The translations under genes and the position numbers were made by a program. Shown here piece after piece: positions 7,655 through 29,734 of a stretch of DNA of 30,921 bases. Positions within the stretch are counted from its first letter, which is position 1; each line of letters starts with the position of its first letter. A model generated the notes under the pieces. The model was not told where the DNA came from. It saw only the letters and a list, made by a program, of their open reading frames with translations, and made no database searches. Origin of the DNA: a virus; the IMG/VR virus record IMGVR_UViG_3300047548_000945, positions 1-30,921 of that record. One strand, written 5' to 3'.

Positions 7655-8018
7655 TTTATCATTACTAATCGGAACCTTACTACAAAGCAGAAACCAAGCT
7701 CAGATATATCATTGGCAAACCAAAGGATTAGGATCTGGCCAAGCACATTTAGCTTTACAGGCATATTATGAAGGTATTATACCTTTAATAGACGAACTTG
7801 TAGAATCCTACCAAGGGAAGTATGGTATTTTATACGGATATAAAATGGCTGGTACTTTGAGAGAAGATGGGGCACATGCTATGTACTTTGAAGGATTATG
7901 TAGATTTATGTCGTCAATAAAATCAACCCTTCCACAAGACAGCTATCTGTTGAATCAATATGATGAGATAGAAACCTTAATTCAAACTACTAAGTATAAA
8001 CTTGTAAATTTACAATAA
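7647..8018 (+). CDS. Small helical protein of the DUF5856 type (ferritin/Dps-like)
   Basis: This 123-residue protein has the run LLQSRNQAQIYHWQTKGLG followed by AYYEGIIPLIDELVESYQGK. I associate this pattern with the DUF5856 family of phage proteins, which is predicted to be a four-helix bundle related to Dps/ferritin. The His, Glu and Asp residues on the helices (HW, YEG, DEL) could be remnants of metal binding. It overlaps the preceding gene by 8 bases and the following gene by TAATG. A role in the virion or in protection of phage DNA is possible, but not shown by the sequence. Confidence 0.65.
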   Translation: MNNLSLLIGTLLQSRNQAQIYHWQTKGLGSGQAHLALQAYYEGIIPLIDELVESYQGKYGILYGYKMAGTLREDGAHAMYFEGLCRFMSSIKSTLPQDSYLLNQYDEIETLIQTTKYKLVNLQ

Positions 8019-8614
8019 TGAAGTTCACAGATTATTTAAGAGAAGTAGCAGAAGATTGCAACTGTGATAAAAAACCTATATCAGAAGGTTTGCAATATCA
8101 CATAGACAATCAAAAGCTACTTACAGAAAATGTATACCGTCCATTCTCCAAAAAGTATTTTGAGCTATTCAAAGAAGCTAGAGAATTATACAGAAGTGGG
8201 GAGTTAATTCTTACTGAAGAAGAAGAGAAACTTATAAAAAATACCGATCTTGGGGAATTCGGATACTACAACGGTATTAAAGTGCCTCTTGACTTTCCTA
8301 TGAGTGAGGAGCAATTAATGGAAGCAAAAGCAGCTAAGAAGAAGCAACCCCCATTAAATAAACCTAAGCGTGGCGGATCAAAAAAGTTCTACGTTTATGT
8401 ACGTAAACCAGGGGGAGGTATCAAGAAAGTTTCTTTTGGTGATACCAGTGGTTTAAAAGCTAAAATAAACGATCCTAAGGCACGTAAATCATTTGCAGCC
8501 AGACATAAGTGTGCACAGAATAAAGATAGGACAAGTGCCGGATATTGGGCTTGTAGGCTTCCTAGATATGCATCTATGCTTGGATTAAAATCTAGTTTTA
8601 CAGGATACTGGTAG
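8018..8614 (+). CDS. Tagged two-domain basic protein, candidate internal head protein
   Basis: This 198-residue protein begins MKFTDYLREVAEDCN, the first of several similar leaders in the window. Residues about 27-90 form a conserved helical unit (YRPFSKKYFELFKEARELY then LGEFGYYNGIKVPLDFPM). After a basic linker, residues 115-198 form a second unit with KVSFGDTSGLKAKINDP, RKSFAARHKC and GYWACRLPRYASMLGL. The second unit is strongly basic with conserved Cys and Trp, and occurs, as far as I recall, as a stand-alone protein in other phages, so this looks like a fusion. It could bind DNA or metal. No named function is known to me. Context and leader suggest packaging into the head. Confidence 0.6.
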   Translation: MKFTDYLREVAEDCNCDKKPISEGLQYHIDNQKLLTENVYRPFSKKYFELFKEARELYRSGELILTEEEEKLIKNTDLGEFGYYNGIKVPLDFPMSEEQLMEAKAAKKKQPPLNKPKRGGSKKFYVYVRKPGGGIKKVSFGDTSGLKAKINDPKARKSFAARHKCAQNKDRTSAGYWACRLPRYASMLGLKSSFTGYW

Positions 8615-8632
8615 TAGTTTAAATTTATTATA

Positions 8633-11083
8633 ATGAAAAAAAATAAAAAAGATATAGAACTGTTAATTAAAAAGATTCTATTAGAAGAAGTAAAACTCCT
8701 TAAAGAACAAGAGGATGATGACGATAGTGATGTAGAAAAAGGCGAAAAATGGAGCCAAACTAATGATCCAGACTCAGCTTCAACTTGGGAAAAGTTGAAA
8801 TACGTTATGGGTAGGTTAGGAAGCTACAAAGTAAATGGTAAATTCTTTGGAAAGAAGAAAGAACTGAAAGCTGCTAAAGAAAAAATAAAAGTTCTTATAA
8901 ATAAAGAAAGTAATAAATTTATAAAGGATTTAGATCAGTTTATTAAAAAAACAAACAAAGAGTTTCCTAATAACTTAAAAGGAGCTGATTTCTTAAGCAT
9001 TGTAATGTCTATAGCTGCTACTTACGATTCTATAGTAGACGCAGTTAAAAAAGAAGAAATGCCTGTAGATGCAGCAAATGGCGTTATTAATGATTTAAGA
9101 GAGTATGTAAAATTTATCTTAGATGCTAAATTATCTGCAGCATACTCTACTGTAGACGAATCAACAGAACAAGACTATAAAGAGTTGTATGAAGCCTTTG
9201 GGTTACAAGAAGACCAAGCAGCTGACATTAGAGCTAAATTTAAAGCAGATAGAGCGGCTAGAGCTGCTGGTGACGACAAAGATGATTACAAAAGCACTAA
9301 GATAGACACTCTTAAATCAAACAAGCTTCCTCTTACCTTAGCTGGGGTAGGAGCTTCTATGGGAGCCTTTAGTTGGTTAGTAAATACTGAATGGTTTAAA
9401 AGCTTGTTCGATGTAGTAACTCCAGATACTTGGAAAGATGGAGCGGAAGTAGCTAGCGAACAAATAACAGATATAAAAGAAGGAGAGGGGGTTTATAAAC
9501 TATTAGGAAGAGTTACTGGTAATAATTTAGATGGAAACTCAAGCCCTTCTGAGTTTGTAAATGCTTTAAAGCAAATAGGAGGGGGAGATGCTAATAAAGG
9601 AGTAGATTTACTTTGTCAAGAAGGCGGAGTAATGATGAAGCCTGAAGAAGCAAAAGAAGGTTTAAAGGAGTTCTTAAAGAACCCTAATGACTATAAGAAC
9701 ATGAATGATTTGTTTCATGGGTCTGCTTCTGGAACAGGTAAGCTAACTCCTACTGACACTACTTTATATGGAACAATATCTGGCAGACAGCTTACGTCTG
9801 TGGTAATGAAGATACTGCCTAAGATTTTTGTAAAAGGTTCTATAAAAACAGGAGCTGGGTATGCAATAGCTAAAGGGTTAGGAGGTATTTTAGGACCTAT
9901 AGGGGTAGGATTATTAGCAGCAGGAGCCACTGTAAAGCTTATGAGGATGAAAGGTTTGAAAACCTCAAGAGCAGCTACTTTAAATGCATTATATCAGTCT
10001 TTAAGAAACTTACCTTCAGGAGAGATAATAAAGCCGGAAGGTCCTATTGACACTAAGATAGAAGTTCCTGTTTCTGATATAAACCCAGCAACAGTATCAC
10101 CAGGAGATACGGGAGCTACTTCTGGAAAACAAGGAGCGCCTACATCTAAATCTGCAAAAGTTACTGATAGTGACGATCTTTATAATACATTAAAGAAAGT
10201 CCTTAAGATGGTAGTAAACAGCAGAAAGAAAGCAGGAACCAGATCTGCTGATAATGTAGGAATGGACGGAGCGGGCACTAGATCAGGAAACAAAAAAACA
10301 AGTAATGCTGCGCCTATTGATGTAGAAGACACAGAAGAGGATATTCCCGATACTCCTAAAACCAGTGAAATAGAAGTAGGAAAGAAGTATACTGTAGCGG
10401 CTAAAAACGGAAGAAAAAGGGAGATAGTTGTGAAAGATATAAAAAATGGACAAGCAACTATACAAAGCGCAGACAAAAAGCCTTTTATAATAAATAAAAA
10501 AACAGTGCTGACTCCTCAATTTTCTATAGATGTCCTAAAGAAAATGATGGATCTTGCACAAAAAAGAAGAGTGACTGAAGCCTACATCTCAGATAAAGAC
10601 ATGAGAAAGTACTTAAGTAGCTCCCTATCATTTGATAAACTTCAAACTTTTGAAGAGTTATTAAAACTTATAGAGAATTTGAGAAATAAAATAAGAGGAG
10701 CTCAAAAATCAAAAGATTCTGAGTTTAATAAGCTTATAGATAACTTCTCAGCTAATCCTATAATGTCTACGGATTTCAAAACAATGTTTGATGTATCTAT
10801 GGGCAAAGATAATAGAGAGTCTATAAAAGCCTTAATAGACGATATATTCTTATCATTGTATTCTAGCAAATTTGGAAGAGAGAATTTAATAGATAAGATG
10901 GCTAGTGCTGGAGGAGGTAACATAAATGCTTTGCAAGAAAAAGAATACAGCACAGTAGATCCAAATAAATCATTTGTTAAAGATGCACAATCTAGAGATA
11001 GATTTAAAGGCAATTTAATAAAATTCTTACAAGATTCAGTAAGACTCTTTCAACACATGTATAGCAGAAGAAAACAGAAGTAG
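8633..11083 (+). CDS. Large tagged protein with hydrophobic glycine-rich segments, candidate ejected internal virion protein
   Basis: The 816-residue protein has the leader IKKILLEEVKLLKEQE, with LLE and LKE sites, followed by an acidic run. Residues 1-220 are helical and charged. Hydrophobic stretches occur at about 231-251 (LPLTLAGVGASMGAFSWLV) and 404-436 (a Gly/Ala zipper: AIAKGLGGILGPIGVGLLAA). A Ser/Thr/Pro-rich disordered part follows at about 470-570. Then a small beta module appears at about 580-625 (KKYTVAAKNGRKREIVVKDI, KOW/SH3-like), and the C-terminal part is helical and charged. Long internal head proteins that can insert in membranes are known in other phages as ejection proteins; that role is inferred here from the leader and hydrophobic segments. 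I do not recognise the family. Confidence 0.6.
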   Translation: MKKNKKDIELLIKKILLEEVKLLKEQEDDDDSDVEKGEKWSQTNDPDSASTWEKLKYVMGRLGSYKVNGKFFGKKKELKAAKEKIKVLINKESNKFIKDLDQFIKKTNKEFPNNLKGADFLSIVMSIAATYDSIVDAVKKEEMPVDAANGVINDLREYVKFILDAKLSAAYSTVDESTEQDYKELYEAFGLQEDQAADIRAKFKADRAARAAGDDKDDYKSTKIDTLKSNKLPLTLAGVGASMGAFSWLVNTEWFKSLFDVVTPDTWKDGAEVASEQITDIKEGEGVYKLLGRVTGNNLDGNSSPSEFVNALKQIGGGDANKGVDLLCQEGGVMMKPEEAKEGLKEFLKNPNDYKNMNDLFHGSASGTGKLTPTDTTLYGTISGRQLTSVVMKILPKIFVKGSIKTGAGYAIAKGLGGILGPIGVGLLAAGATVKLMRMKGLKTSRAATLNALYQSLRNLPSGEIIKPEGPIDTKIEVPVSDINPATVSPGDTGATSGKQGAPTSKSAKVTDSDDLYNTLKKVLKMVVNSRKKAGTRSADNVGMDGAGTRSGNKKTSNAAPIDVEDTEEDIPDTPKTSEIEVGKKYTVAAKNGRKREIVVKDIKNGQATIQSADKKPFIINKKTVLTPQFSIDVLKKMMDLAQKRRVTEAYISDKDMRKYLSSSLSFDKLQTFEELLKLIENLRNKIRGAQKSKDSEFNKLIDNFSANPIMSTDFKTMFDVSMGKDNRESIKALIDDIFLSLYSSKFGRENLIDKMASAGGGNINALQEKEYSTVDPNKSFVKDAQSRDRFKGNLIKFLQDSVRLFQHMYSRRKQK

Positions 11084-11087
11084 ATAT

Positions 11088-11354
11088 ATGAGTTATGAAG
11101 TACCTTATAAAGAAGAATACTCCAAAGGCTGGTACGAAAGGGTTTTTAAAAGTGACGTAGAATCAGGAGAGCTAGTATGGCACAGAGATCGTGAAGATAG
11201 GATAGTAGAACCTATAGAACCTACTGATTGGATGTTTCAAAGGGAAAATGAGCTGCCTATAAAAATAGAGGGGCAGATTAACATACCTATGGGACAGTGG
11301 CACAGGACAATAAAAGGTACAGGGGATTTAAAAATAAGGATTAAAAAACTATGA
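11088..11354 (+). CDS. Small conserved beta-rich phage protein (cupin-like)
   Basis: This 88-residue protein contains ELVWHRDREDRIVEPIE, a W-x-F-Q segment, then NELPIKIEGQINIPMGQWHR and GTGDLKIRIKKL. The pattern of a 'WHRD' strand, a 'P-x-x-x-HR' turn and a last strand fits a small cupin-like barrel; I associate such proteins with T4-like marine phages. H33, D35 and the later H are possible metal ligands. It has no leader tag and its stop overlaps the next ATG. Function is unknown. Confidence 0.55.
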   Translation: MSYEVPYKEEYSKGWYERVFKSDVESGELVWHRDREDRIVEPIEPTDWMFQRENELPIKIEGQINIPMGQWHRTIKGTGDLKIRIKKL

Positions 11355-12091
11355 AATTTATAAAACTCTTAGAGCAGTCGATAGTAGAGGAGGCATTGAT
11401 AAATGAACAAGTTGAGGAAGGTATAGGAAAGACTATAGCTAAGGGAGCTTTAGCTGGTGCTTTAAGTTTCAGTCCTGTTAAAAAAGATATAAAAAGTACT
11501 AAACCCGATACTGAGTTATCAACTAAAGCCAAAAGTGCTACTAGTAAGTATTCTACAATAGTATCAGATATAATAGACAATATAGAAGGAGGTTACTATA
11601 ATCCTGGACAATTAAAAAGTAAAAAATATAAAAGGTCCGGAGAAACTATGTTTGGTTTAGATAGATTAAGATCTCCTGAAATAACTAAATCTCCACAAGG
11701 ACAAGAATTTTGGAACACTGTTGACAAAAATAAAAAAAATTGGAAGTGGAATGACATGGGAGGGGAGGAAGAAAGTAAGTTGAAAGATATAGCAAAAGAT
11801 ATAATGGTTTCTAGATTTGAAAACTATTTAAACAGGTATATAAAAACAGATAAAGCAAAAAATCTAATAAAAAATAATTATAACCTACTTTTTAATTTTG
11901 TATATTCAACTTGGAATGGCCAAGGATGGTTTAAAGACTTTTCAGAGATAGTAAATAGCGAAATAGACAAAGGGAATGAAAACCCGGAAGATATATTTGA
12001 AAAATTAATACAAGCTAGAAAGAACAGTAAAAACGGTCTTATTCGACAGTCCGCTCCTAAAGTAGAAAAATTAGCAAGTAAAAACCCATAG
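11351..12091 (+). CDS. Tagged lysozyme-like protein (candidate virion muramidase)
   Basis: The 246-residue protein starts with the leader MKFIKLLEQSIVEEALINE, which offers IVE and INE sites, and then a short Ala/Gly hydrophobic stretch (24-40). From about residue 70 it shows DIIDNIEGGYYNP, with Glu79 in the position of the lysozyme-superfamily catalytic acid, followed by SGETMFGLDRL at 96-106. This E-G-G ... G-E-T-x-F-G-L layout resembles GH108/secretion-type muramidases (E-G-G ... G-G-T-x-y-G-I). The later FNFVYSTWNGQGWF fits the helical lobe. It would cleave peptidoglycan. The head-type leader suggests the enzyme is packaged and ejected rather than used in host lysis. The alternative is a lysozyme fold without activity. 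Confidence 0.6.
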   Translation: MKFIKLLEQSIVEEALINEQVEEGIGKTIAKGALAGALSFSPVKKDIKSTKPDTELSTKAKSATSKYSTIVSDIIDNIEGGYYNPGQLKSKKYKRSGETMFGLDRLRSPEITKSPQGQEFWNTVDKNKKNWKWNDMGGEEESKLKDIAKDIMVSRFENYLNRYIKTDKAKNLIKNNYNLLFNFVYSTWNGQGWFKDFSEIVNSEIDKGNENPEDIFEKLIQARKNSKNGLIRQSAPKVEKLASKNP

Positions 12092-12093
12092 TT

Positions 12094-12672: not shown

Positions 12673-12682
12673 ATATTTATAT
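12672..12682 (+). promoter_or_regulatory. Candidate promoter motif
   Basis: AATATTTATAT lies just after the stop of the zinc-ribbon gene and 17 bases before the ATG at 12700, the same spacing as the copy before 7013. Confidence 0.6.
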
Positions 12683-12699
12683 CTATAAATTATATAAAA

Positions 12700-13323
12700 A
12701 TGAACCTCTCTGATATTTTTAAAGAAGCGTTGCTTGAAGCCAAGAAAGAAAAACCATCTGCTGGACTTACAAAAAAGCAAAAATCTGACGTTGCGAAGAA
12801 GGCAAAAGCAGGTAAAGATATAGGCAAAAAAGGTAAAGGATTTGAAAAAATAGCTAAAAAAGCTGGTGGAGGAGAGAAAGGTGAAAAGATAGCCGCCGCA
12901 GCAATGTGGAAGAATGTCAAGAGGGTAAAAGAAGGATCGGATGGAATGGATCATGAAGTATCTATGGCCAAAAATAGTTTAAAATCAATAGCTAAATCGG
13001 TAATGGATTTGATGCAAAAACTAGGAGACGAAGAAAGAGACATTCCAGGCTGGATCCAAGACCACATAACTAATGCAGAGAATTTCATAGATCAAGCAGC
13101 TCAAGGATTTCATGAGTTGGGGGGACACGATGAAGAGGATGACGATGATTCTGAAGAATCAGAAATGATACAGCCAGTAGACGAGAAAAAACTGACTAAA
13201 GCTGAAAAAGAAAAGAAAGATGAGATACTAAAAGCAATGGAGAAAAAAGGTGGAGGCAAAAAAAAGATGGGTCCTAAACAATATGCAATAGCAACTGCAC
13301 AAGCAATTAAATCTGCTGAGTAA
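12700..13323 (+). CDS. Tagged Lys-rich mosaic protein, candidate internal head protein
   Basis: This 207-residue protein starts MNLSDIFKEALLEAKKEK, a leader with a clear LLE site. Residues 22-78 are extremely Lys-rich with GKGFEKIAKKAGGG and KIAAAAMWKNVK. Residues 85-132 form a helical unit with IPGWIQDHITNAENFIDQAA, similar to helices seen in other T4-like phage small proteins. A run of Asp/Glu at about 133-147 separates this from a basic C-terminus KKMGPKQYAIATAQAIKSAE. The mosaic of basic, helical and acidic parts would suit a DNA-associated internal protein. No enzyme motif is present. Its stop overlaps the next ATG as TAATG. Confidence 0.6.
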   Translation: MNLSDIFKEALLEAKKEKPSAGLTKKQKSDVAKKAKAGKDIGKKGKGFEKIAKKAGGGEKGEKIAAAAMWKNVKRVKEGSDGMDHEVSMAKNSLKSIAKSVMDLMQKLGDEERDIPGWIQDHITNAENFIDQAAQGFHELGGHDEEDDDDSEESEMIQPVDEKKLTKAEKEKKDEILKAMEKKGGGKKKMGPKQYAIATAQAIKSAE

Positions 13324-13841
13324 TGAAACTTTTAGACATACTAAAAAAAATGATTTTAGAGGAGCTAGAAGCCATGAACTGTGAAAGTTGTGGGCAAGAT
13401 GCCAATATGGAGATGTTATATGAAAAGCTTTGCCCAAAAGGAAAAGCTTATGCAGAACGTAGAAAAGCTGCTGGAGAAAAACACTCTGCGTATTTAATGG
13501 GAAGGGCTGTTCAAGTGTGTAAAGGAGGTATAGGAAAAAAGAGAAAAGTAAAAAAAGAAGGATTAGAGGATATAGAAGAAAGTTTACATAGTTGGTTTAA
13601 AAGAGAAAAGTGGGTTAGAATAGATACTGAAGGTAACATAGCAGGGAAATGTGGGACTATGAAAAAAGGAAAGCCTACTACAAGATGCTTACCTTTAGCT
13701 AAAGCAAAAAGCCTATCAAAAGAAGAAAGAGCTGCTACATCAAAAAAGAAAGTAGCTGCTTCTAAAAAAGGAAAACAGTTTGTGTCAAATACAAATAAAG
13801 CTAAAGTGTCTTTTAAATCTAGAGAAAAAGATAAACAATGA
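13323..13841 (+). CDS. Tagged basic Cys-containing protein with two small domains
   Basis: The 172-residue protein starts MKLLDILKKMILEELEAM (ILE/LEE sites), then CESCG at 20-24. Residues 37-67 read CPKGKAYAERRKAAGEKHS and end in a second Cys (VQVCKGG). Residues 86-165 contain LHSWFKREKWVRIDTEGNI, a CGTMKKGKPTTRC segment and SLSKEERAATSKKK. This second unit recurs, as I recall, in small basic proteins of phages, bacteria and large DNA viruses, without known activity. The strong positive charge suggests nucleic-acid binding, and the Cys pairs suggest zinc. It overlaps its neighbours by TAATG upstream and ATGA downstream. Confidence 0.6.
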   Translation: MKLLDILKKMILEELEAMNCESCGQDANMEMLYEKLCPKGKAYAERRKAAGEKHSAYLMGRAVQVCKGGIGKKRKVKKEGLEDIEESLHSWFKREKWVRIDTEGNIAGKCGTMKKGKPTTRCLPLAKAKSLSKEERAATSKKKVAASKKGKQFVSNTNKAKVSFKSREKDKQ

Positions 13842-14122
13842 TAAAATTTTTAAAATTATTAGAAGAGTACGGAGGTGGTAAATACGAACTTCCTGAAAAC
13901 CATAAAGCAGGTATGAAAGTGCCATATGGAGGCTCATGTTGTGCAAATTGTAAATGGTGGGTACCTAAAGACAAATCTGAGAAATACCATTGTATAAATG
14001 AGTATTATCAAAAATGGGCGGGTACTGACTCAATTCCATATGATCCAAAAGAGTATTGTACTGATTGGTGGGAACCTAAAAAAGGTGATGCACCTAAAAA
14101 ATCTAAATCTAAGGAAGATTAG
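13838..14122 (+). CDS. Tagged HiPIP-like cysteine protein
   Basis: This 94-residue protein begins MIKFLKLLEEYGGG, with an LLE site at residues 7-9. The rest has C34, C35, C38, C52 and C74 in the layout GSCCANCKWWVPKD, HCINEYYQKW, IPYDPKEYCTDWWE. This closely resembles the four-Cys iron-sulphur pocket of high-potential iron-sulphur protein-like domains found in some T4-like marine phages. It could bind a 4Fe-4S cluster or zinc. A redox function inside a virion would be unusual. Coupled to the previous gene by ATGA. Confidence 0.62.
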   Translation: MIKFLKLLEEYGGGKYELPENHKAGMKVPYGGSCCANCKWWVPKDKSEKYHCINEYYQKWAGTDSIPYDPKEYCTDWWEPKKGDAPKKSKSKED

Positions 14123-14135: not shown

Positions 14136-14711
14136 ATGAAGCCAAGATTTTACGAAATATTCAGAAATAAAGTCCTTTGGGAGGTAGAAATAACTAAGGT
14201 AGAAAATGAATCTAACTTAGAAAAGATTATTAAAAAATCTCCAAAAGTTACAAACACTCTCATAAAACTTTTAACTACTCAGGAAAAGAAGAGTAAAAAA
14301 TCAATAGATCAACTTAGAGAGGTAGTATCTGATATTAGGTGTATTGCATATAAACCTACTACCTTTAGGGTAGTAATACCTAATGGAAGTTTTTTTGATT
14401 TAAAATATAATCCAAGTCCTCTTGAGTTAAACTACCCTGAAGATTTTAAAGACTCTGATTTTTTTCAAGTTATTGCAAACGGGAAAAAATACGATATTGT
14501 TAATCGATCAGAGTATGAACAAGCATTGGATCAGATAAATATCTTATTGAAAAACAAACCCATAACTAAGGAGCCAGAACCAGAAGGAGGAGAAGGCGAA
14601 GCTCCCCCTGAAGGAGGAGATGAAACAAAGGGATTAGATACAGGAGAGGCACCTCCGGAGGGAGAAGAAGCAGCTCCAGAAGAGGAAGAAACTAAAGAAC
14701 CAGAAGCATAA
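14136..14711 (+). CDS. Unknown protein with acidic Pro-rich repeat tail
   Basis: The 191-residue product starts MKPRFYEIFRNKVLWEVEI, a weaker version of the leader (LWE site). The open frame extends upstream to 13998 but that part overlaps the HiPIP-like gene and lacks coding character, so the ATG at 14136 after the promoter motif is chosen. Residues 1-145 look like a mixed alpha/beta domain (FRVVIPNGSFFDLKYNPSPL). The last 45 residues are acidic and repetitive with GEAPPEGG and GEAPPEGE units. The acidic tail could keep a capsid partner soluble. The family is not recognised. The stop overlaps the next ATG. Confidence 0.55.
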   Translation: MKPRFYEIFRNKVLWEVEITKVENESNLEKIIKKSPKVTNTLIKLLTTQEKKSKKSIDQLREVVSDIRCIAYKPTTFRVVIPNGSFFDLKYNPSPLELNYPEDFKDSDFFQVIANGKKYDIVNRSEYEQALDQINILLKNKPITKEPEPEGGEGEAPPEGGDETKGLDTGEAPPEGEEAAPEEEETKEPEA

Positions 14712-19319: not shown

Positions 19320-20168
19320 ATGAAGCTTAAACATAATAAACTTCGAAACACGGGACTCTTATTTGAACTGCTAGTCAGACAAATAACTACGGATACTTTA
19401 AATAATAAAGAGTCCAAAGCTGTAGACATTCTTAAAAAGAATTTCAACAACACCCTTATTGCCAAAGAATACCGTATCTACAAAGCACTTTTGAGTAGTA
19501 AAAATCTTTCTGAATCTAAAGCAAATGTTGTAATAGACACTGCTTTACAGGCACATAAAAAGATAAATAAAAAAACTTTAAGTAAACAAAAATACGATTT
19601 AATATCCCAAATTAAAGAGCATTATAACCTTGATGATTTCTTTAAAACTAAGGTAGATAACTACAAAAGCATAGCATCTGTTTATATGCTTTTCGAGATA
19701 CAACAAAGTGATAAAATAGACCCAGAGGCTGAAATAAAGTACAAGTTTTCTATAATGGAAGACATTTGTAATGGGGCAAAAAATAAAGAAATTGATCCTC
19801 TGTTAACAGAGTTTGCCTCTTATGATAAGGGTACCAAAGCCCTTGTTTACAAACTCGTAATTCAGAAGTTTAATGACAAATACTCAAATCTTAATGAAAG
19901 TCAAAAGAACCTTTTAAAAAGGTATATAACTGACATTTCTACTCCTGAGTCTTTTAAAGAGTATGTAAACGAGGAGTACGATAGAATAAAAACAAAATTA
20001 ACTAAACTAACAAAGACTATAGAAGACACGGTTAGAAAAGTTAAATTAGAAGAGGTCGTAAATATAATAAAACCTATACCAGCCGGAAGACAGGTATCAG
20101 ATTTGGAGTTAGAGAATTTACTATATTTTTATCAACTTGAAAAAGAACTCGAAAATATTAAAAGATAA
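19320..20168 (+). CDS. Conserved helical protein in the head-assembly block
   Basis: The 282-residue protein starts MKLKHNKLRNTGLLFELLVRQ and is almost entirely helical and charged. It contains repeated Lys/Glu/Asn-rich stretches and no Cys cluster or enzyme motif. It lies between portal and protease genes, where T4 has the small prohead-core genes 67 and 68, so a prohead or scaffold-related role is likely by position only. I associate similar openings (K-x-N-K-L-R-N-T-G-L-x-F-E-L-L) with other T4-like phages, but no function is known to me. Confidence 0.6.
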   Translation: MKLKHNKLRNTGLLFELLVRQITTDTLNNKESKAVDILKKNFNNTLIAKEYRIYKALLSSKNLSESKANVVIDTALQAHKKINKKTLSKQKYDLISQIKEHYNLDDFFKTKVDNYKSIASVYMLFEIQQSDKIDPEAEIKYKFSIMEDICNGAKNKEIDPLLTEFASYDKGTKALVYKLVIQKFNDKYSNLNESQKNLLKRYITDISTPESFKEYVNEEYDRIKTKLTKLTKTIEDTVRKVKLEEVVNIIKPIPAGRQVSDLELENLLYFYQLEKELENIKR

Positions 20169-20178
20169 AGTAGACGAA

Positions 20179-20394
20179 ATGTCTACAACTGGGGGAGGAG
20201 CTCCTGCAGCAGATCAAGGTCACGTTATTCCTGGTGACGGAGAAGGTGTAGCAACTAGGCATGCTTTTTCTGGTGCTGGAGGTACAAAAGCAAAAAGAAA
20301 AAAAGGGATATTGGTTACTAAAAAAATAGGAAAATGGGCAGAATCGATAGATTTAGCCTCAGAATATAAAAGACTTTTTAAAAAAGAACTATAA
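20179..20394 (+). CDS. Small Gly-rich basic protein
   Basis: The 71-residue product starts MSTTGGGAPAADQGHVIPGD, has a flexible Gly-rich N-terminal half with PGDGEGVATRHAFSGAGG, then a basic KAKRKKG and a C-terminal helix ending LFKKEL. The frame can be extended to a TTG at 20137 inside the previous gene, but the ATG at 20179 after the upstream stop is more likely. Similar short proteins appear near head genes of related phages as far as I recall. Function unknown. The next gene starts one base after its stop codon. Confidence 0.55.
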   Translation: MSTTGGGAPAADQGHVIPGDGEGVATRHAFSGAGGTKAKRKKGILVTKKIGKWAESIDLASEYKRLFKKEL

Positions 20395-20949
20395 ATGACA
20401 ACGCAGCAATTATATCAAAAAGTATTAAAAGAGGAAATGTCAAAATCTGAATTCTTATTTCACATAAGAAGAAATCCTCTGTATCAGGACTCTTTAACAA
20501 ACACCATGTCATATGATGACACAGTTAATAAGTTAAAAGGTAAAGGACATTTATGGGACCCAGAAAATAAAGCTGAAGTAAAGCAAGGATATAACTTTTT
20601 TAGCGCTTTTAAAGCACTTAATGAGTCTTTAACTGAAGGTAAAAAACAGAAAATTAAGGGTGGAAAAGGCGATAAATTAACTCCCGATCAAGTTAATTAC
20701 TATGAATTTACCAAAGGTTGGAAGCATGAATTAGAGCATACAGATGATTTAGATAAGGCTAAAGAAATTGCCTTAGACCATTTAGCAGAAGATCCAAACT
20801 ATTATACACGTTTGGATATGATTGAGTTTAAAGCAAAGAAGAAAAAAGTACGTGCTGATCTTCCTACTGAAGTTAAAAAAAATAACTTCAAAGATAAGGA
20901 AAATCAAATGAAAAATGCACCAAAAAAGAAATCTCCAAAGAAGTCTTAA
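20395..20949 (+). CDS. Tagged basic protein with a DUF5661-like domain
   Basis: The 184-residue protein starts MTTQQLYQKVLKEEMSKSE, a leader with LKE. Residues 22-80 form a unit with FLFHIRRNPLYQDSL and an AFKALNESL helix. Residues 95-140 read VNYYEFTKGWKHELEHTDDL then AKEIALDHLAEDPNYYTRL, which closely matches DUF5661-like phage domains (ELEHT ... A-x-x-I-A-x-DHL-x-E-P-x-YY). The C-terminal 40 residues are strongly basic (KNAPKKKSPKKS). A DNA-associated internal head protein is a reasonable guess from leader, charge and location. No catalytic motif was recognised. Confidence 0.62.
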   Translation: MTTQQLYQKVLKEEMSKSEFLFHIRRNPLYQDSLTNTMSYDDTVNKLKGKGHLWDPENKAEVKQGYNFFSAFKALNESLTEGKKQKIKGGKGDKLTPDQVNYYEFTKGWKHELEHTDDLDKAKEIALDHLAEDPNYYTRLDMIEFKAKKKKVRADLPTEVKKNNFKDKENQMKNAPKKKSPKKS

Positions 20950-20951: not shown

Positions 20952-23852
20952 ATGGATTTTGAAACCATAATATATAATATTTTAAACGAAGATTCGGATA
21001 GGCTGAGATCTTTAAAATTAGCAGCCGCCTCTAATGACCCACAAAGAACTAGAGACACTTATCCGAGCACTAAATCTTCTTTTGAAGAAGGAAGTGTTCA
21101 TATGATTCCATTTAAAAATATTGTTGATGGACAAAAAAGATTGTACAGAGAAATATACAGAAAAATTACTAAAGCTGAATATGACAGTTTAAAAAACAGT
21201 TATAAAATAGTGGCTGCTGTAGTACCTACTAAAGAGGAAGAACACTACAAAGATGTGTATTACACGGCAGTTAAGCAATATACTAAGGGGGATAAAAGTA
21301 AAAAAGATTCTGAAGATGATTATAACCCTCCAAAAGAGTATAAAAGCAAACAATTTATATACCTCTCGAAAAAAGAGGCCGATCAATATAACAGAGATCT
21401 TCCTGATGAATACAAACTAGAACTTGTACCCCTCAAAGATATATATGAAAAAGGAATAGGCGTTAGAAGTACGTCTATAAAAGATTATATAGATTATGTA
21501 GAAAAGTTAGAAAAGTCAAAAGAGTTTAAAAAGCAATCGCTACAAAAACCTAAAAGTGACGTAGAGCAGGAAACAAAGAATTTTTTAACCAATAATAGCA
21601 GCACTTTAGATAAAATAGAAAGCTTATACGATCAGTATAAGAAGCCTGGACAAAAAGCAGATGCTGTAGAAGAGTACAAGAGCCTTTTAGTTAGGTTTAT
21701 TAAAAGGTATACTGATAGCCTAAAAGATGAAAAAAATGACACAGTTATTGCAAAAGTGTGGTCAACTTTGAAAGAGAGGTTTTCAGATAAAATGGCATTG
21801 TACAACATGTTAGTATCTGAGTATACAAATACAGATACAGATACAAAAACTAAATCACCTTCTGACACAAGCCCGGAACCAAAATTTGAGCCTAAAAAAC
21901 AAAAAATAGATAAGCCTAAACCCTCTACAAATGCAAAAGTAGATAAAGATGATGCTAAGTCTAAAGGACAAGAGTTTATGCTTGACAATAGCAATATCTA
22001 TCTTTTGAATAATATGATAAAAGCTTTTTCTGAATTTGAAGATAGAAAAAATAGCAGAGAAGAAAGAGAGTATCAAAGAGGAAAGGTTCTTGAGTATATA
22101 GGAAAATTATTAAATAATATTTATAAAACTAGTAAAAAAGTTGAAGTAACGGATTACATAGTTAATGAAATGATAAGGAATAGAATTGCTGCATTAGCAG
22201 GCCAAGACGATACCGAACTATACAGCATGCTTAGCAGAGCTTACGAATACCAAAAAAAACAGAAAATGGAAAATAGTAAAAAAGAAAACTCACTATTAGA
22301 AATGGAAGGAGCTCTTCCTGATGATATGTCTTTTGATGTGATTATAAAATATTCTAGTGATAGTGTGAAACCTGGGTATGAAAAGACACAAGAAGCTAAA
22401 ATGAAGGGAAAATCTATAAAAGCACTAGTAAAGAAGGACTCTATAGAATTTAAAAAAGAGTATGATTTTCAAAAAGTGGTTGAAGTTCCTGTAAAAAAAG
22501 GTTCAACAACGTATGACAGAGAAACTATATCAGGTAAGATAACTGTTTTAAAACCTTCTGGGGGGCTTGTTCCTGATAGAAATCTAATGTTAAAAGGGAA
22601 GAGGGACTCCACAGGAAAATCTGTAAATACGAATACTGCTGAAAAAGAAAAAGATAAAAACTTTAGGACTAGTATAGCAGGACAGGCTGCTGGATTTTAC
22701 AAAGCTCCTGATAACAGAGGCGTTACTAAAGTAAATGCTACTCCCAATCAGCTTAGAAGTTCTTATTATGTTGTAGATACTCAAAATAAAAAGTATGTAC
22801 CGGGAGGATTTGATAATTGGGGGGATGCTAAATTAGCAGCTGCTAATCTTAATAGTAAGGAGAATGTATCTTACTATAAAGCTGTTCCAAAAACAGCCGT
22901 ATCAAAATATACAGGAGATATATATGAAGAGTTTACAGACAAGGAAAAGAATGAAGTAAAATCTAAAAAAATATCATTTAAAGTAAGATCATCAGATCCT
23001 AAAAAACCAGATGCTGAAGAACAAGTAGATGGAACTATAAAAACCGCTACTTTTAATAAAAAAGATGGTTTGGTTATTATTATGGATGATAATTCAGAAG
23101 TAGTATTTAGCAACGAGGATACAGGTAAGTACTATAAAAATCCTCAAGATAAACAAAATTTCAATGTTGTTAATTTTGTTCCAAACTCTCTTAAATCTGT
23201 GTTAAAAAAGGCATTTGCTGCTCCAAAAACAGAAACTAAATTAGAATCATATATCCGTAAAAGAATTAAAAGAGCTCTTCAAGAAACAGAGTTATCGCAA
23301 TACATGGGAGCTCAAGGTCCTGAAGTAAAAAAAAAGCGTCTTGAAGAGTACATGAAAAAATATGAGTGGGGATTTCAAGAAAGTGAAGATCCTTACGTAA
23401 GATCTAATGGAACAGAAAAACATTCTATTGTAAGTAAACTTGTCCATGAGTTAGGAGACGAAGGAGTTTCTATATTTAATTCTTACGCCCCTAAAGGCTA
23501 CGAAATAGCTCGTCCTGACGACTTAAATGATATGGCTGATAGTCCATTAGGATCTCAAATGGCACGTCCTTTTGAGCCAAATACATTGACTATGAGAGGC
23601 GGTAGAGTTGCTGAAGATGGTGTGTGGGGAGGTCCTGTAAAAGACAAAGGACAGAAAGCAGATCAGTTACCTAGGGTAATAGCATCTCCTCAGTCTTCTA
23701 AAATAGTACCTGCTATAAAAGCTAAAAAAAGTGCAAAAGAAGCAGAAGGGCTTATATCAATATTTAGGCAAGCAAATAATATGCCTCTCCCAGAAAAAGG
23801 AGGGCATGTAACCGATCAGCAAATATACGATGCAATAAAAAATTATAAATAA
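20952..23852 (+). CDS. Very large tagged hydrophilic protein, candidate internal head protein
   Basis: The 966-residue protein begins MDFETIIYNILNEDSDRLRS, a leader with an LNE site. It is highly charged, Lys-rich and low in Cys and in hydrophobic segments. Residues about 190-420 look like helical repeats separated by a Pro/Ser/Thr/Lys linker (LLNNMIKAFSEFEDRKNSRE). Residues about 590-650 carry RSSYYVVDTQNKKYVPGGF and NWGDAKLAAANLNSKENVS, a small alpha/beta unit. The C-terminal 200 residues include LESYIRKRIKRALQE and APKGYEIARPDDLNDMADS. It sits directly upstream of the protease gene. Not assigned to a family; a packaged cargo or core protein is inferred from position and leader. Confidence 0.58.
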   Translation: MDFETIIYNILNEDSDRLRSLKLAAASNDPQRTRDTYPSTKSSFEEGSVHMIPFKNIVDGQKRLYREIYRKITKAEYDSLKNSYKIVAAVVPTKEEEHYKDVYYTAVKQYTKGDKSKKDSEDDYNPPKEYKSKQFIYLSKKEADQYNRDLPDEYKLELVPLKDIYEKGIGVRSTSIKDYIDYVEKLEKSKEFKKQSLQKPKSDVEQETKNFLTNNSSTLDKIESLYDQYKKPGQKADAVEEYKSLLVRFIKRYTDSLKDEKNDTVIAKVWSTLKERFSDKMALYNMLVSEYTNTDTDTKTKSPSDTSPEPKFEPKKQKIDKPKPSTNAKVDKDDAKSKGQEFMLDNSNIYLLNNMIKAFSEFEDRKNSREEREYQRGKVLEYIGKLLNNIYKTSKKVEVTDYIVNEMIRNRIAALAGQDDTELYSMLSRAYEYQKKQKMENSKKENSLLEMEGALPDDMSFDVIIKYSSDSVKPGYEKTQEAKMKGKSIKALVKKDSIEFKKEYDFQKVVEVPVKKGSTTYDRETISGKITVLKPSGGLVPDRNLMLKGKRDSTGKSVNTNTAEKEKDKNFRTSIAGQAAGFYKAPDNRGVTKVNATPNQLRSSYYVVDTQNKKYVPGGFDNWGDAKLAAANLNSKENVSYYKAVPKTAVSKYTGDIYEEFTDKEKNEVKSKKISFKVRSSDPKKPDAEEQVDGTIKTATFNKKDGLVIIMDDNSEVVFSNEDTGKYYKNPQDKQNFNVVNFVPNSLKSVLKKAFAAPKTETKLESYIRKRIKRALQETELSQYMGAQGPEVKKKRLEEYMKKYEWGFQESEDPYVRSNGTEKHSIVSKLVHELGDEGVSIFNSYAPKGYEIARPDDLNDMADSPLGSQMARPFEPNTLTMRGGRVAEDGVWGGPVKDKGQKADQLPRVIASPQSSKIVPAIKAKKSAKEAEGLISIFRQANNMPLPEKGGHVTDQQIYDAIKNYK

Positions 23853-24592: not shown

Positions 24593-24619
24593 TAAATCCA
24601 AAAAAAAATTTAAGGAAAA

Positions 24620-25699
24620 ATGAACACAAATTTGCTCAAAGAAGCAATCGCAGAAGCGGATGCTATCAAAAAAATGGCTATTGAAAACGCAAAAGCAAGT
24701 TTAAACGAAGCTTTTGATTCTAAAGTTAAGGCAATGCTTGCCGCTCGTTTATCAGAAGAAGTTGATGATGCAGAACTTGAAGAAGACTACGAAGAAGGGT
24801 ACGATGATAAAGAGAAGATGGATGAGAAAAAGCATGAAGACGGTGATGACGAAGGCTATGGTATGGAAGAAGCCGAAAAAGATATGGATTATGAAGACGA
24901 AGCCTATTCAGAAGGCGATGAAGATGCCGATGAAGCTTTCGATCTTGATGAAATCTTAGCTGAACTTGAAAAAGGCGGCGATGATGGTGAAGATAAAGAT
25001 GCAGAAGAAGAAGATTCTGAAAAAGGTGATATGGACGAAGCTAAGGACGATGAAGGCAATGAAGATATGAAAGAGGCTAAAGACGAAGATAAGGAAGAAT
25101 CAGTAGATGAAGAAATCGACATAGCTAAACTTCTTGCTGAAATGGGCGATGAAGAAGAAGTGAAAGAAGCCAAGCATGATGACGATGACGATGATGATCA
25201 TGAAAATGATGATGATAAAGATGAAGTGGCCATTTTAGAAGAGGAGATGATGAGTCTTCTTGAAAAAATGAAAATGGCAAAAGAAGCTAAGGAAAATAAA
25301 AAACAAAAGAAAAATCCTGAAGCTGAAGAACTTCAAGAAATCAAGCGTCAAGCTGCTGAATTAGCTCAAAAAGTTAATGAAACAAACTTGATCAACGCTA
25401 AACTTCTTTATCTGAATAAGATTTTACGTAAGTATAATCTTTCTGAACAACAAAAATTAAAAGTTATTAGCGCTTTTGATAAAGCTGGAACAACTAGGGA
25501 AGCAAAAATTGTACACGAATCTCTGGATCAAGCATTTAGCGTTAAGAACGACAATACTAAAGGAAGTCTGAAAGAGTCTATTGGGTTTGCTTCTAAGGCA
25601 GCTGGTACCTCAACTAAGCGTGTTATAAATGAAGGCGTGATTACCAATGCAGATGCGCAAGTGTCTAGGTGGCAAAAGCTCGCTGGTATTATAAAATAA
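24620..25699 (+). CDS. gp22: Acidic prohead core (scaffold) protein, gp22-like
   Basis: The 359-residue protein should form the inner scaffold of the prohead and be digested by gp21. It starts MNTNLLKEAIAEADAIKK with an IAE site, followed by LNEAFDSKVKAMLAARLSEE, which resembles N-terminal regions of T4-like core proteins. Residues about 50-210 are an extreme Asp/Glu-rich region with repeated D-E-D/E-E-G units. Residues 215-290 form a helical coil with AEELQEIKRQAAELAQKVNE, and the end is ADAQVSRWQKLAGIIK, a closing motif common in related core proteins. It lies between gp21 and gp23 as in T4. T4 gp22 is shorter (about 270); the acidic insertion explains the difference and may take the role of T4 gp67. 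Confidence 0.82.
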   Translation: MNTNLLKEAIAEADAIKKMAIENAKASLNEAFDSKVKAMLAARLSEEVDDAELEEDYEEGYDDKEKMDEKKHEDGDDEGYGMEEAEKDMDYEDEAYSEGDEDADEAFDLDEILAELEKGGDDGEDKDAEEEDSEKGDMDEAKDDEGNEDMKEAKDEDKEESVDEEIDIAKLLAEMGDEEEVKEAKHDDDDDDDHENDDDKDEVAILEEEMMSLLEKMKMAKEAKENKKQKKNPEAEELQEIKRQAAELAQKVNETNLINAKLLYLNKILRKYNLSEQQKLKVISAFDKAGTTREAKIVHESLDQAFSVKNDNTKGSLKESIGFASKAAGTSTKRVINEGVITNADAQVSRWQKLAGIIK

Positions 25700-25726
25700 A
25701 ATAAAAAATAAAAAAAACAAAGTAAA

Positions 25727-27367
25727 ATGAACGTACAATCTCTCCTCGAAAGCTCCAATCCGTACGCTTCGCAAATGAACGAAGCTACAAGGTTGGTGAA
25801 GAAGTGGGAAGCTACGGGTCTTCTTGAGGGTAATGACCTTAAGAACCAAGCCTACGGTAAAGAAAGGATGTCTATCATCCTTGAAAACCAAGCTAAGCAG
25901 CTTCTCGTAGAACAATCTCAAACTGGTACCGGTGGCACATTTACCGTAGGTGCTGGTGAGCAATGGGCTGGTGTAGCTCTTCCTTTGGTTCGTAAGATCT
26001 TCGCTGAAATCTCTTCTAAAGAGTTCGTTAGCGTGCAGCCAATGACATTGCCTGCTGGTCTTGTGTTCTTCTTGGAATTCAAGTATGGCAACAACCGTCC
26101 TGGTACTCCTCTGACAAACCGTTTCACATCTGGTGACAGCATGTACGGTACAACTAACGTAAAAGATGTTAACCCTGCTGGTGGTCTTTACGGTGCTGGT
26201 CGTTTTGGTTACTCAATCAACAACTACTCTGCTTCTGTAAACTACACCATCACTACAGCTTCTGCTGCTGACGTTAACTTCAACTCTATCTACAGCGCTT
26301 CTGCTGCTGCTGGTAAGCTTCGTAAGTTGTCTGTAACTTCTGCTAGCGGTTCTTTGACTAACCTCGACATCAACGCTGTTCGTGGTTTCATCGTAACTGG
26401 TAGTGGTGTAAACGAAAGCAACTTGTTTGCTGAATTTACTTCTTACGCTTCTAACGATACCCTTTCTTTCATTGTATCTGGCTCTGCTGGTCAATTGAAC
26501 TTGGGTTCTGGTTCTGGCGTAGTATTCTACCAGAAGCAACCTGCTGACAACAGCCGTGGTGACTTCGAAGATGCAGTATCTTCTCCTCTTACTGGTTCTA
26601 ACGCAATCCCTGAGATTAACGTTGAACTTCGTTCTGAGGCCGTAGTTGCTAAAACAAGGAAACTTAAAGCTAAGTGGACTCCAGAATTCAGCCAAGACCT
26701 GAATGCTTACCAGTCCCTTGACGCTGAAGCTGAATTGACTTCTACTCTGTCAGAATATATCTCTCTTGAGATCGACCTCGAAATTATCGACATGTTGATC
26801 CAAAATGCTAACACCACAGATTACTGGTCTGCTTCTGCTAACACCTTCTACAATAAGGTAGCTGGTACTTGGTCACAAGCTGCTGCTGGTGCTGGTGGCT
26901 ATTACAACACTCAAGGTCAGTGGTTCGCCACTCTTGGTACTAAGATCCAGAGCGTAGCTCGTAAGATCCACCAAAAGACTTTGCGTGGTCAAGCTAACGT
27001 TCTCATGTGCGGTCCTTCTATCGCAACAATCATCGAATCTATCCCTGGCTATGCCGCTGATACCGATGGTAGCAAAGAAGAGTTTGCAATGGGTTCACAC
27101 AAAGCTGGACAATTGAATAGCCGTTACAAAGTGTATGTTAACCCATACATGAACGAAAACACTATTCTTTTGGCTTATAAAGGTAGCCAGTTCCTCGAAA
27201 CAGGTGCTGTGTTTGCTCCTTATATCCCATTGATTATGACTCCGTTGTTGTATGATCCTGAAACTTTCACCCCAAGGAAAGGTCTGATGACCAGGTACGC
27301 TAAGAAAATGTTGCGTTCTGAGTTCTTTGGTAAAGTTGAAGTAGCAGATCTTGACAATGGTTATTAA
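25727..27367 (+). CDS. gp23: Major capsid protein
   Basis: The 546-residue protein forms the hexamers of the head shell (HK97 fold). The N-terminal propeptide holds KWEATGLLEGNDLKNQAYG and ends LLVE-QSQTG, so gp21 probably cuts after Glu62, close to the T4 site at 65. Conserved T4-like segments include ALPLVRKIFAEISSKEFVSV, QPMTLPAGLVFFLEFKYG, RSEAVVAKTRKLKAKWTPE and the C-terminal FTPRKGLMTRYAKKMLRSEF. Residues about 150-275 form a Ser/Ala/Gly-rich insertion typical of the surface domain. Codons are enriched in gct, ctt, aac, cgt and ggt, unlike the AT-rich neighbours, as expected for the most abundant virion protein. It ends before a strong terminator. Confidence 0.96.
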   Translation: MNVQSLLESSNPYASQMNEATRLVKKWEATGLLEGNDLKNQAYGKERMSIILENQAKQLLVEQSQTGTGGTFTVGAGEQWAGVALPLVRKIFAEISSKEFVSVQPMTLPAGLVFFLEFKYGNNRPGTPLTNRFTSGDSMYGTTNVKDVNPAGGLYGAGRFGYSINNYSASVNYTITTASAADVNFNSIYSASAAAGKLRKLSVTSASGSLTNLDINAVRGFIVTGSGVNESNLFAEFTSYASNDTLSFIVSGSAGQLNLGSGSGVVFYQKQPADNSRGDFEDAVSSPLTGSNAIPEINVELRSEAVVAKTRKLKAKWTPEFSQDLNAYQSLDAEAELTSTLSEYISLEIDLEIIDMLIQNANTTDYWSASANTFYNKVAGTWSQAAAGAGGYYNTQGQWFATLGTKIQSVARKIHQKTLRGQANVLMCGPSIATIIESIPGYAADTDGSKEEFAMGSHKAGQLNSRYKVYVNPYMNENTILLAYKGSQFLETGAVFAPYIPLIMTPLLYDPETFTPRKGLMTRYAKKMLRSEFFGKVEVADLDNGY

Positions 27368-27387
27368 TCTGAAAAGATAAAATATAG

Positions 27388-27417
27388 AAAGGCCGGAATA
27401 TTATTTCCGGCTTTTTT
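27388..27417 (+). terminator. Rho-independent terminator after the capsid gene
   Basis: GCCGGAA (27392-27398) pairs with TTCCGGC (27405-27411) around a 6-base loop, the stem is extended by G-T and A-T pairs, and a run of six T follows. This is the only strong GC-rich terminator in the window. Confidence 0.93.
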
Positions 27418-27428
27418 ATTTATTTTAA

Positions 27429-27439
27429 AATATTTATAT
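27429..27439 (+). promoter_or_regulatory. Candidate promoter motif upstream of phoH-like gene
   Basis: AATATTTATAT follows the capsid terminator and lies 10 bases before the ATG at 27450. Its location right after a terminator strongly supports a promoter role. Confidence 0.7.
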
Positions 27440-27449
27440 AAAAGCGTTT

Positions 27450-28139: not shown

Positions 28140-28140
28140 T

Positions 28141-28151
28141 AATATTTATAT
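28141..28151 (+). promoter_or_regulatory. Candidate promoter motif upstream of neck genes
   Basis: AATATTTATAT begins right after the phoH stop, 15 bases before the ATG at 28167. Confidence 0.62.
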
Positions 28152-28166
28152 TTATAAAGAATTATA

Positions 28167-29333
28167 ATGGCTGGCCAAGTAGAAATACAATATTATGATG
28201 CGAGTGTCCCGTTACTCCCTGTTTCGGGAAACACTCCATTTGGATTTTTTGATACAGACTCTGAATTTCAGACGGATGGTCAAAAATTTGTCAAGTTTGC
28301 TGCTAGGAGACTTGGTTATCCAATCATGGAAATTGAATTGCAAGACATAAATTTCTACGCTTCTTTAGAAGACGCAGTAGCTGTGTATGGCAAAGAGTTA
28401 TATGAATATAAAATAAGAGAAAACTATCTTTCTTTAGAAGGAAATACAACAGGAAGCGCATTAAACACAACTCTAATTCAACCGAATTTTGAGAATATGT
28501 TTAGAATAGCTGCCGATTATGGAAGTGAAGTAGGTAGTGGAGGGAATATAAACTATTATTCCGGATCTATAGATCTAATAGCAGGACAGCAGTACTATGA
28601 TTTAACTACTTGGGCCAGTGCATCAGCTTCCCTAACTCCTGGAGATAGTATAGAGATAAAAAGATTGTTTTATGAAGCATCCCCAGCTATTGTAAGATAT
28701 TTTGATCCATACGCTGGAACGGGTACCGGACTTCAATCTTTAATGGAAACTTTTGGATTTGGACAATTTTCTCCTGGAATTAACTTTATGTTGATGCCAG
28801 CTTATTTTGATGTGTTAAAAATACAAGCAATTGAGTTTAACGATCAGATAAGAAAGTCAGGATATGGATTCGAACTTATAAATAACAAGCTTAGAATTTT
28901 TCCAATACCTACTTTTAATAGAAAGATGTTCTTTACCTATATTAAAAAATCAGAAAGAAGTGCTCTATACAGAAATCCTTCTAACGGATTGATAACTAAT
29001 GTAAGTAATGTTCCTTATAATAACATTAACTACAGCCAGATAAACGATATATTCAAAAAATGGATATTTGATTACGCTTTAGCCGTAACAAAAGAAACTT
29101 TAGGCAATATCAGAGGGGTTTATAATCAAATACCAGTGCCGGGGGCAGAGGTTACAGTTAACGGACAAACTTTAATTGATCAAGCAAATGCAGAAAAAAC
29201 TGCTTTAGTTGAACAGTTAAGAGCTACTTTAGATGATACATCTCGTCAAAAGCAATTAGAAAAGAAATCTCAAGAGGCTTCTATGATGAGAGAGACCTTT
29301 GTGAACTTTCCAATGCCAATTATTATAGCCTAA
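28167..29333 (+). CDS. gp13: Neck protein, gp13-like
   Basis: The 388-residue protein likely is the head-completion (neck) protein that docks below the portal. The N-terminus has FGFFDTDSEFQTDGQKFVKF, AARRLGYPIMEIELQDINFY and KIRENYLSLEGNTTGSALN, which match gp13-type neck proteins of T4-like marine and cyanophages. A middle part, IDLIAGQQYYDLTTWA, precedes YFDVLKIQAIEFNDQIRKSG. The C-terminal helix (QLRATLDDTSRQKQLEKK) is charged. It is longer than T4 gp13 (309). The stop overlaps the next start as TAATG. Confidence 0.78.
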   Translation: MAGQVEIQYYDASVPLLPVSGNTPFGFFDTDSEFQTDGQKFVKFAARRLGYPIMEIELQDINFYASLEDAVAVYGKELYEYKIRENYLSLEGNTTGSALNTTLIQPNFENMFRIAADYGSEVGSGGNINYYSGSIDLIAGQQYYDLTTWASASASLTPGDSIEIKRLFYEASPAIVRYFDPYAGTGTGLQSLMETFGFGQFSPGINFMLMPAYFDVLKIQAIEFNDQIRKSGYGFELINNKLRIFPIPTFNRKMFFTYIKKSERSALYRNPSNGLITNVSNVPYNNINYSQINDIFKKWIFDYALAVTKETLGNIRGVYNQIPVPGAEVTVNGQTLIDQANAEKTALVEQLRATLDDTSRQKQLEKKSQEASMMRETFVNFPMPIIIA

Positions 29334-29734
29334 TGACTAAATTATTAGATATACTATTAGAAAAAGACAACGATTATAGGTTCAGAAAGAAAGAATCTAT
29401 AAAGAAGACTTTTCATAGCTATTCTTGTGTATTTCTTGTCAAATTTAAAAGAAAAGTAAACAGGGTACAAGCAGTTGAGAGAGTTAGAGGAATTCCTACT
29501 GTGACTATAGTAGACCTAAGAGGGGATGAAAAACTTGATAAGATAAATAGAACACTAAAAGATTACGAATACAGCACTGTAGAAGTAAAATTCATAACTA
29601 ACAGAGATCCAAAAAAACATTTGAATTTTATAAAACATGCTATGGTCAGATCAGATAAAGAAAAAGGATTGAATAATATTCCTGGTATAGTTGCTGCTAC
29701 TCCTAAATTAGACACCCTTGTAAAAACTGACTAA
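29333..29734 (+). CDS. Small unknown protein between neck genes, with a leader-like N-terminus
   Basis: The 133-residue protein begins MTKLLDILLEKDNDYRFRKK, very like the leaders of the internal-protein candidates (LLE site). The rest is alpha/beta with HSYSCVFLVKFKRKVNRVQA, RVRGIPTVTIVDLRGDEK and YSTVEVKFITNRDPK, suggesting a ferredoxin-like fold (beta-alpha-beta). Overlaps both neighbours as TAATG. It may be a virion component of the neck or another head cargo. I do not recognise a family. Confidence 0.6.
   Translation: MTKLLDILLEKDNDYRFRKKESIKKTFHSYSCVFLVKFKRKVNRVQAVERVRGIPTVTIVDLRGDEKLDKINRTLKDYEYSTVEVKFITNRDPKKHLNFIKHAMVRSDKEKGLNNIPGIVAATPKLDTLVKTD

Follow-up and report, generated by a model that had tools for sequence, protein, structure and literature searches.

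The window, a 30,921-base virus record of IMG/VR (IMGVR_UViG_3300047548_000945), is a fragment of a T4-like phage that carries the T4 head module in order, and it encodes a set of otherwise unrelated proteins with short, similar N-terminal leaders. In its relatives, four families of such leaders recur on unrelated protein bodies and end in the [LI]-x-E pattern. Very probably, these leaders are capsid targeting sequences (CTSs) that are removed by the prohead protease gp21 and load a large, variable cargo into the head, in part by mimicry of the scaffold. In phage T4, the internal proteins IPI-III and Alt carry a CTS that is cut by gp21, Alt being cut at its C-terminus as well (PMC9026906, PMC3012670), and processing of the T4 CTS depends on its residues 8 and 10 (PMC9026906). 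It is from this precedent (PMC3012670, PMC9026906) that we infer packaging, cleavage and injection for the proteins described here.

Leader families, their predicted cleavage motif and the scaffold tail

Eighty relatives were fetched via gp23, and genes were called on nine large relatives and on most of Flavobacterium phage immuto; G-numbers below denote related genomes or contigs, and L-numbers related loci. Judged by gp21, the best named relatives are Microcystis phage Mel-JY01 and immuto, and the nearest isolates of this T4-like group infect Flavobacterium. Among named phages, the leader peptides were found in immuto only. Across ten related genomes and IMG/VR, the leaders on unrelated proteins fall into families A (MKLLDILKE), B (MKKSQLRQLIKEE), C (MENFDLKKFLVEN) and D (RMQKLAGIITES). 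As expected of a CTS, leaders of ~10-20 residues are common to unrelated proteins of one phage, marginally so in the window alone, and they end in [LI]-x-E, most clearly in families C and D. For family C, IMG/VR was searched with a DNA pattern for M-x-N-F-[DN]-L-K-K-[FY] that left the following residues free. The 84 distinct leaders retrieved nevertheless continue with L or I (78), a variable middle residue (A 37, V 25, K 7, S 6, T 4) and E (76), and the residue after the E is N, G or S in 77/84. When all positions after RMQKLAG were left free for family D, mostly [IL]-[TNKS]-E came next. The DNA pattern for family A is unspecific: 24 of its 84 matches are plausible starts, and 14 of these 24 have L-x-E with the E at residue 9.

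The peptide of family D is also the C-terminal end of the scaffold protein gp22, which in the window reads RWQKLAGIIK (25667..25696, +) directly before the stop. Among 3,526 proteins, the motif [KR]xQxLAG[ILVM] occurs 65 times at the extreme C-terminus, almost always of gp22, five times at the N-terminus of unrelated proteins, and never internally. An IMG/VR scan with the D motif gave 80 distinct matches, 75 of them terminal (52 C-terminal, 23 N-terminal) and one present at both ends; the other four include one apparent N-terminus with a non-ATG start and two located ~20 residues from the C-terminus. The gp22 C-termini of T4, cyanophages and related phages lack the RMQKLAG motif, Mel-JY01 gp22 has the variant RMKKLAGIVK, and gp22 of cyanophages and related phages (L552-L555) ends in a different common motif resembling S-M-x-x-Y-x-x-x-x-K. 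Families A and B match the N-termini of gp22 in relatives (IMM 125582, G006 93891, G002 136545, G005 56256) and of the protein at the gp67 position, and family C members are located between gp21 and gp22. The cargo leaders thus appear to copy the ends of resident core proteins, which suggests, at the level of sequence, that cargo is loaded into the head by mimicry of a scaffold end.

Two further observations concern the position of the D peptide. An 805-residue protein of G007 (82104-84521; L155:2104-4518) carries RMQKLAGV at each end as well as a stretch resembling OmpA; its gene adjoins the orthologue of window gene 11088, itself a neighbour of 8633, and the arrangement recalls T4 Alt with its cuts at both ends. 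At L347, L353, L356 and L361, the RMQKLAG motif stands close to or at the C-terminus of small proteins other than gp22 (76-180 residues), so tagging of cargo at the C-terminus may be frequent as well.

The leaders are exchanged between bodies. The 116 tagged proteins form 90 body clusters, of which 78 are singletons and four mix leader families. The body of the protein encoded at 8018 has an A leader in the window, the class B leader MDKARLKQLIKEV in G005 and no leader in immuto. A body homologous to that of 14136 starts in G003 right after a class B leader (MKKSDLKKVILEAYVEVLKE followed by AEAPVLKTS), and the body of 13323 is preceded by MTHERLQELISE in G004 and by other letters in G002 and G006. 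Where the same bodies bear other leaders, the junctions fall at L-x-E. Identical leader residues are encoded by different codons in 63/235 pairs, and the differences counted in the G002 leaders are 25 synonymous against 0 non-synonymous; it is thus the peptide that is under selection. It is scarcely credible, therefore, that the shared 5' ends are DNA elements, such as translation signals or recombination hot spots. The tandem arrangement of tagged genes (G002 20-24 kb, immuto 117-119 kb) would fit this idea, which is largely refuted by the codon variation and is further at odds with the presence of the D peptide at C-termini.

The leaders also go together with gp21. Genuine class C leaders occur on six contigs of at least 100 kb, each of which encodes gp21 (S77, PF03420), and at the same length PF03420 was found on 1/1 contigs with an N-terminal and 4/4 with a C-terminal D motif. 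On three contigs whose pattern-matching open reading frame lacks L-x-E, neither S77 nor a T4 portal was found. The specificity of gp21 can be read from the major head protein gp23, whose propeptide in the window (25727..25912, +) contains gp21 sites at LLE8, LLE34 and ILE53 and an expected maturation cut between LVE62 and Q. In 64 distinct gp23 sequences of the clade, residue 62 is E in 100%, P3 is L, I, V or M in 100% and P2 varies, so that [LIVM]-x-E is present in 64/64; LLE34 and ILE53 are likewise found in the clade, and the site at residue 62 lies near the residue-65 cut of T4. Since gp23 keeps the same site, the expected specificity of gp21 would coincide with the leader end, as in T4.

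Leader-bearing genes of the window

The original prediction was made from the window, and all nine N-termini that it quoted are found there, the one for 8633 with a shift, as the product begins MKKNKKDIELLIKKILLEE and the quoted IKKILLEE starts only at residue 12. Its statement that gp21 lies in the same window holds too (23854-24462, +; phrog_207, E = 1.7e-45); gp21 has LTE sites of its own at residues 6 and 19. The tags of the window itself belong to class A; this is also the family used by its closest relatives, and in both B-like variants occur beside it. In the following, each leader is written up to its predicted cut site. Candidate tagged proteins of the window total about 3,200 residues, in line with the predicted figure of more than 2,000, and orthologues of 8018, 12700, 13323, 13838, 14136, 20395, 20952 and 29333 keep a leader.

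Upstream of the head genes, MKFTDYLRE (8018..8044, +) starts a 198-residue protein (8018-8614) with a possible second cut at VAE12; its orthologues begin MKFTDFLKE or MKLTSFLKE. Immediately upstream of this tagged block lies a gene for a Dps/starvation-inducible-like protein (7647-8018; phrog_858, 2e-13). The leader MKKNKKDIELLIKKILLEEVKLLKE (8633..8707, +) precedes an 816-residue protein (8633-11083), and a homologue, G012 50315, begins MANKNKEIQDLIKKILREE. Membrane-insertion-like segments had been predicted for this product, and its hydrophobic, glycine-rich stretches are real (about residues 232-250 and 411-435). The leader MKFIKLLEQSIVE (11351..11389, +; class A profile score 19.0) stands on a 246-residue protein (11351-12091) with a further site at INE19; a search for relatives of this protein found none. 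Its earlier description as lysozyme-like is unsupported, as no family matched and a poor single-sequence structure model (predicted local distance difference test score 47.7) gave no fold match.

The leader MNLSDIFKEALLE (12700..12738, +; class A profile score 27.2) is attached to a Lys-rich protein of 207 residues (12700-13323), and its pattern is retained in G001, G012 and G013. It is followed by MKLLDILKKMILE (13323..13361, +; score 25.5) on a DUF5872-like protein of 172 residues (13323-13841), and by MIKFLKLLE (13838..13864, +) on a Cys-rich, HiPIP-like protein of 94 residues (13838-14122), whose orthologues begin MISFLKLME or MIKIVDLLKE. The Cys pattern of this last protein fits the iron-sulphur character first proposed for it, but the best match to HiPIP is weak (E = 0.13). 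The leader MKPRFYEIFRNKVLWE (14136..14183, +), after which the 191-residue protein (14136-14711) continues with VEITKV, had been overlooked.

The head module comprises the terminase (15815-17395), the portal (17437-19293), small core-position genes between portal and gp21, gp21 itself, gp22 (24620-25699, +), gp23 (25727-27367, +) on the 3' side of gp22, and then PhoH, gp13 and gp14 in this order; terminase, portal, gp22, PhoH and gp14 are named by position and sequence resemblance. The core protein at the gp67 position (20137..20394, +), between portal and gp21, has 71 residues when read from the ATG at 20179. An in-frame TTG at 20137 would add the leader-like MKKNSKILKDKVDE, which matches the leader in immuto and G003, and in relatives the protein bears the class B leader MKKSQIVKAVQEVLEE followed by MSTTG. 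Next come MTTQQLYQKVLKE (20395..20433, +) on a 184-residue DUF5661 protein (20395-20949; DUF5661, 6.7e-11), a leader that is near-invariant within the clade, the body being elsewhere fused or bearing another tag, and MDFETIIYNILNE (20952..20990, +) on a 966-residue protein (20952-23852). Bodies homologous to the latter have leaders of varying letters and constant pattern (MTFSDIIFYSLKE, MALHKEIYDFFKE, MNLVHEIYEFFNE). The N-terminus of gp22, MNTNLLKEAIAE followed by A (24620..24655, +), had also been overlooked. Finally, MTKLLDILLE (29333..29362, +) begins a 133-residue protein encoded between gp13 and gp14, with MKLIDIILE, MVKLIDILIE and MTKLLDILLE in orthologues. Elsewhere in the window, two neighbouring reading frames (1593-2131) resemble the halves of a single FkbM-type methyltransferase, broken or frameshifted, and two fibre-like proteins contain TPTPTPT repeats (3219-4728).

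Strength of the signal and competing explanations

To what extent these resemblances exceed chance depends on the sample. When alike N-termini on unrelated bodies were counted within the window, no pair reached a score of 28 and two reached 24 (null mean 0.2, maximum 2), which is not significant. With 100 column-permuted controls as the null and a score of 32, N-terminus-anchored similarity between non-homologous proteins exceeds the null maximum in G002, G003, G005, G007, G012 and immuto, most clearly in immuto (15 pairs; null mean 0.23). The sole pair in a T4 control stretch was IPII/IPIII, a known CTS pair. No leader-class matches were obtained among 629 proteins of three large phages without gp21, nor in the part of the cyanophage S-SM1 genome that was read. 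A profile of N-termini, the check proposed at the outset, was trained outside the clade of the window and found 20 of 359 clade proteins, with 1.8 expected at that threshold. In the window it singles out 29333 and 13838 clearly (decoy fractions 0.0001 and 0.002), with 8633 (0.009) and 13323 at about 1%, but the terminase also appears, at 1.6%. As a whole, the predicted fleet of proteins with T4-CTS-like leaders and a gp21 site is thus well supported, and far above chance, once relatives are considered, whereas it is near chance in the window alone, and its packaging and injection are drawn from analogy.

Several results weigh against the leaders being gp21-cleaved targeting sequences throughout. 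Within the first 24 residues, L-x-E with amphipathic spacing occurs in 8/38 window proteins, against 4.8 ± 1.9 in shuffles, and conclusions from L-x-E in the window alone are therefore unsafe. Families A and B are less specific than the others, as they also match the terminase and conserved baseplate-region proteins. Some homologous bodies have no leader (immuto 101226). On many of the shorter contigs that bear C or D leaders no gp21 was found, which their being fragments would explain without proving it, and a 98.8-kb contig with both C and D leaders yielded none either. G039, the 150-kb contig of L224 and one of the three whose pattern-matching frame lacks L-x-E, has class-A-like N-termini at 24155 and 36916 and no detected gp21, gp23 or T4 portal; a different head protease or an incomplete contig may account for this. 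Searches with phrog_207 and Portal_T4 of the contigs without gp21 found nothing, but lacked a positive control. Beside these results stand two observations from relatives: the two conserved baseplate-region families with N-termini matching families A and B are exemplified by G001 124550-124930 and 128017-128385 and their orthologues, and further class A leader genes form a second island apart from the head module (G001 131-137 kb; G012 8-12 kb).

The near-chance frequency of the loose rule, the fit of the terminase N-terminus (MSNEKSIKEIIREE) to L-x-E and the baseplate-region matches are what one would see if the leaders were N-terminal amphipathic helices of the ordinary kind, which resemble one another by chance or serve for other docking, to baseplate or membrane, with L-x-E incidental. 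We regard this as highly improbable, since the specificity of families C and D is much too high for it, both retain L-x-E while the middle residue is free, both are found together with gp21, and D reproduces the scaffold C-terminus. A pattern as common among non-virion proteins had been named as the outcome that speaks against the original prediction; the loose L-x-E rule comes close to it, whereas families C and D stay clear. It is somewhat less improbable, though still unlikely, that the tagged proteins are constituents of the prohead core only, which bind the core and give it shape, are degraded by gp21 and leave without ever being delivered. That gp22 and the gp67-position protein bear the same leaders, and that the 966-residue protein lies within the portal-gp21 block, would agree with such a role. 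The 90 body clusters, however, are mostly unique to one phage, and enzyme-like bodies (Acb1-like, zeta-toxin kinase, NT5C) are unlike a structural core.

For the favoured explanation, capsid targeting, we envisage that the short amphipathic peptide, N-terminal and occasionally C-terminal, would bind the prohead core or shell and thereby bring the attached protein into the prohead. Gp21 would then cut after [LI]-x-E, and the mature protein would stay in the head with the DNA and probably be ejected into the host. Each of the interchangeable families resembles one end of a protein that resides in the head or core: for A and B this is the N-terminus of gp22 or of the gp67-position protein, for C that of a small protein next to gp21/gp22, and for D the C-terminus of gp22.

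Cargo, known systems and implications

Recognisable bodies include an Acb1-like 2H phosphoesterase, zeta-toxin kinases and NT5C-like, DUF5872 and DUF5661 proteins, and most bodies are unassigned; matches to the T4 internal protein family were sought in PHROGs and Pfam, and none were found. In G005, a D leader stands on the Acb1/2H phosphoesterase-like protein (148412-148975; L134:8412-8972), whose match (4.8e-6) is just under the Pfam cut-off; it is a candidate preloaded protein against CBASS (cyclic oligonucleotide-based antiphage signalling system). Zeta-toxin-like kinases have C and A leaders (5.5e-15 and 4.5e-10; L183:8743-9561 and L414:924-1676).

The system resembles the T4 CTS in placing a short N-terminal leader that ends in [LI]-x-E on unrelated bodies, with a gp21 of the S77 type encoded by the same phage. 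It differs in its leader sequences, which have only the end pattern hydrophobic-[LI]-x-E in common with the T4 CTS MKTYQEFIAE, in the coexistence of several families, in its many more cargo families, and in having one leader that equals a scaffold C-terminal peptide lacking from T4 gp22. In the giant phage SPN3US, gp45, gp47, gp53 and gp54 have N-terminal propeptides that the prohead protease cuts after x-x-E, the paralogues gp53 and gp54 having an identical N-terminus (PMC5694885). Propeptides of phiKZ-type giant phages are likewise removed by the prohead protease, but are mostly of 100 or more residues with other cleavage motifs, whereas the leaders here have about 10-25 residues. The helix-turn-helix region at the C-terminus of the P22 scaffold directs fused proteins into the capsid in laboratory use (PMC9962691). 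There, too, a scaffold C-terminal region is the loading signal, but with engineered cargo fused to a truncated scaffold; here the signal would have arisen naturally, would mostly sit at the N-terminus and would precede a protease site. In the open-access papers that we searched, we found no description of these leaders or of an RMQKLAG peptide, such tags being described for T4 and giant phages only.

On balance, though with less assurance than for capsid targeting itself, we favour a modular packaging code in which leaders that copy core and scaffold termini move among unrelated genes, cargo with RMQKLAGI poses as scaffold until gp21 releases it, and dozens of counter-defence or host-takeover proteins are preloaded. 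The leaders would provide a sequence rule, applicable to genomes alone, that predicts packaged and probably injected proteins in a widespread T4-like group, and they suggest that cargo is recruited by copying of the scaffold end. The Acb1-like protein and the zeta-toxin-like kinases are candidates for preloaded counter-defence, and the leaders might find use as loading tags for capsids of phages other than coliphages.

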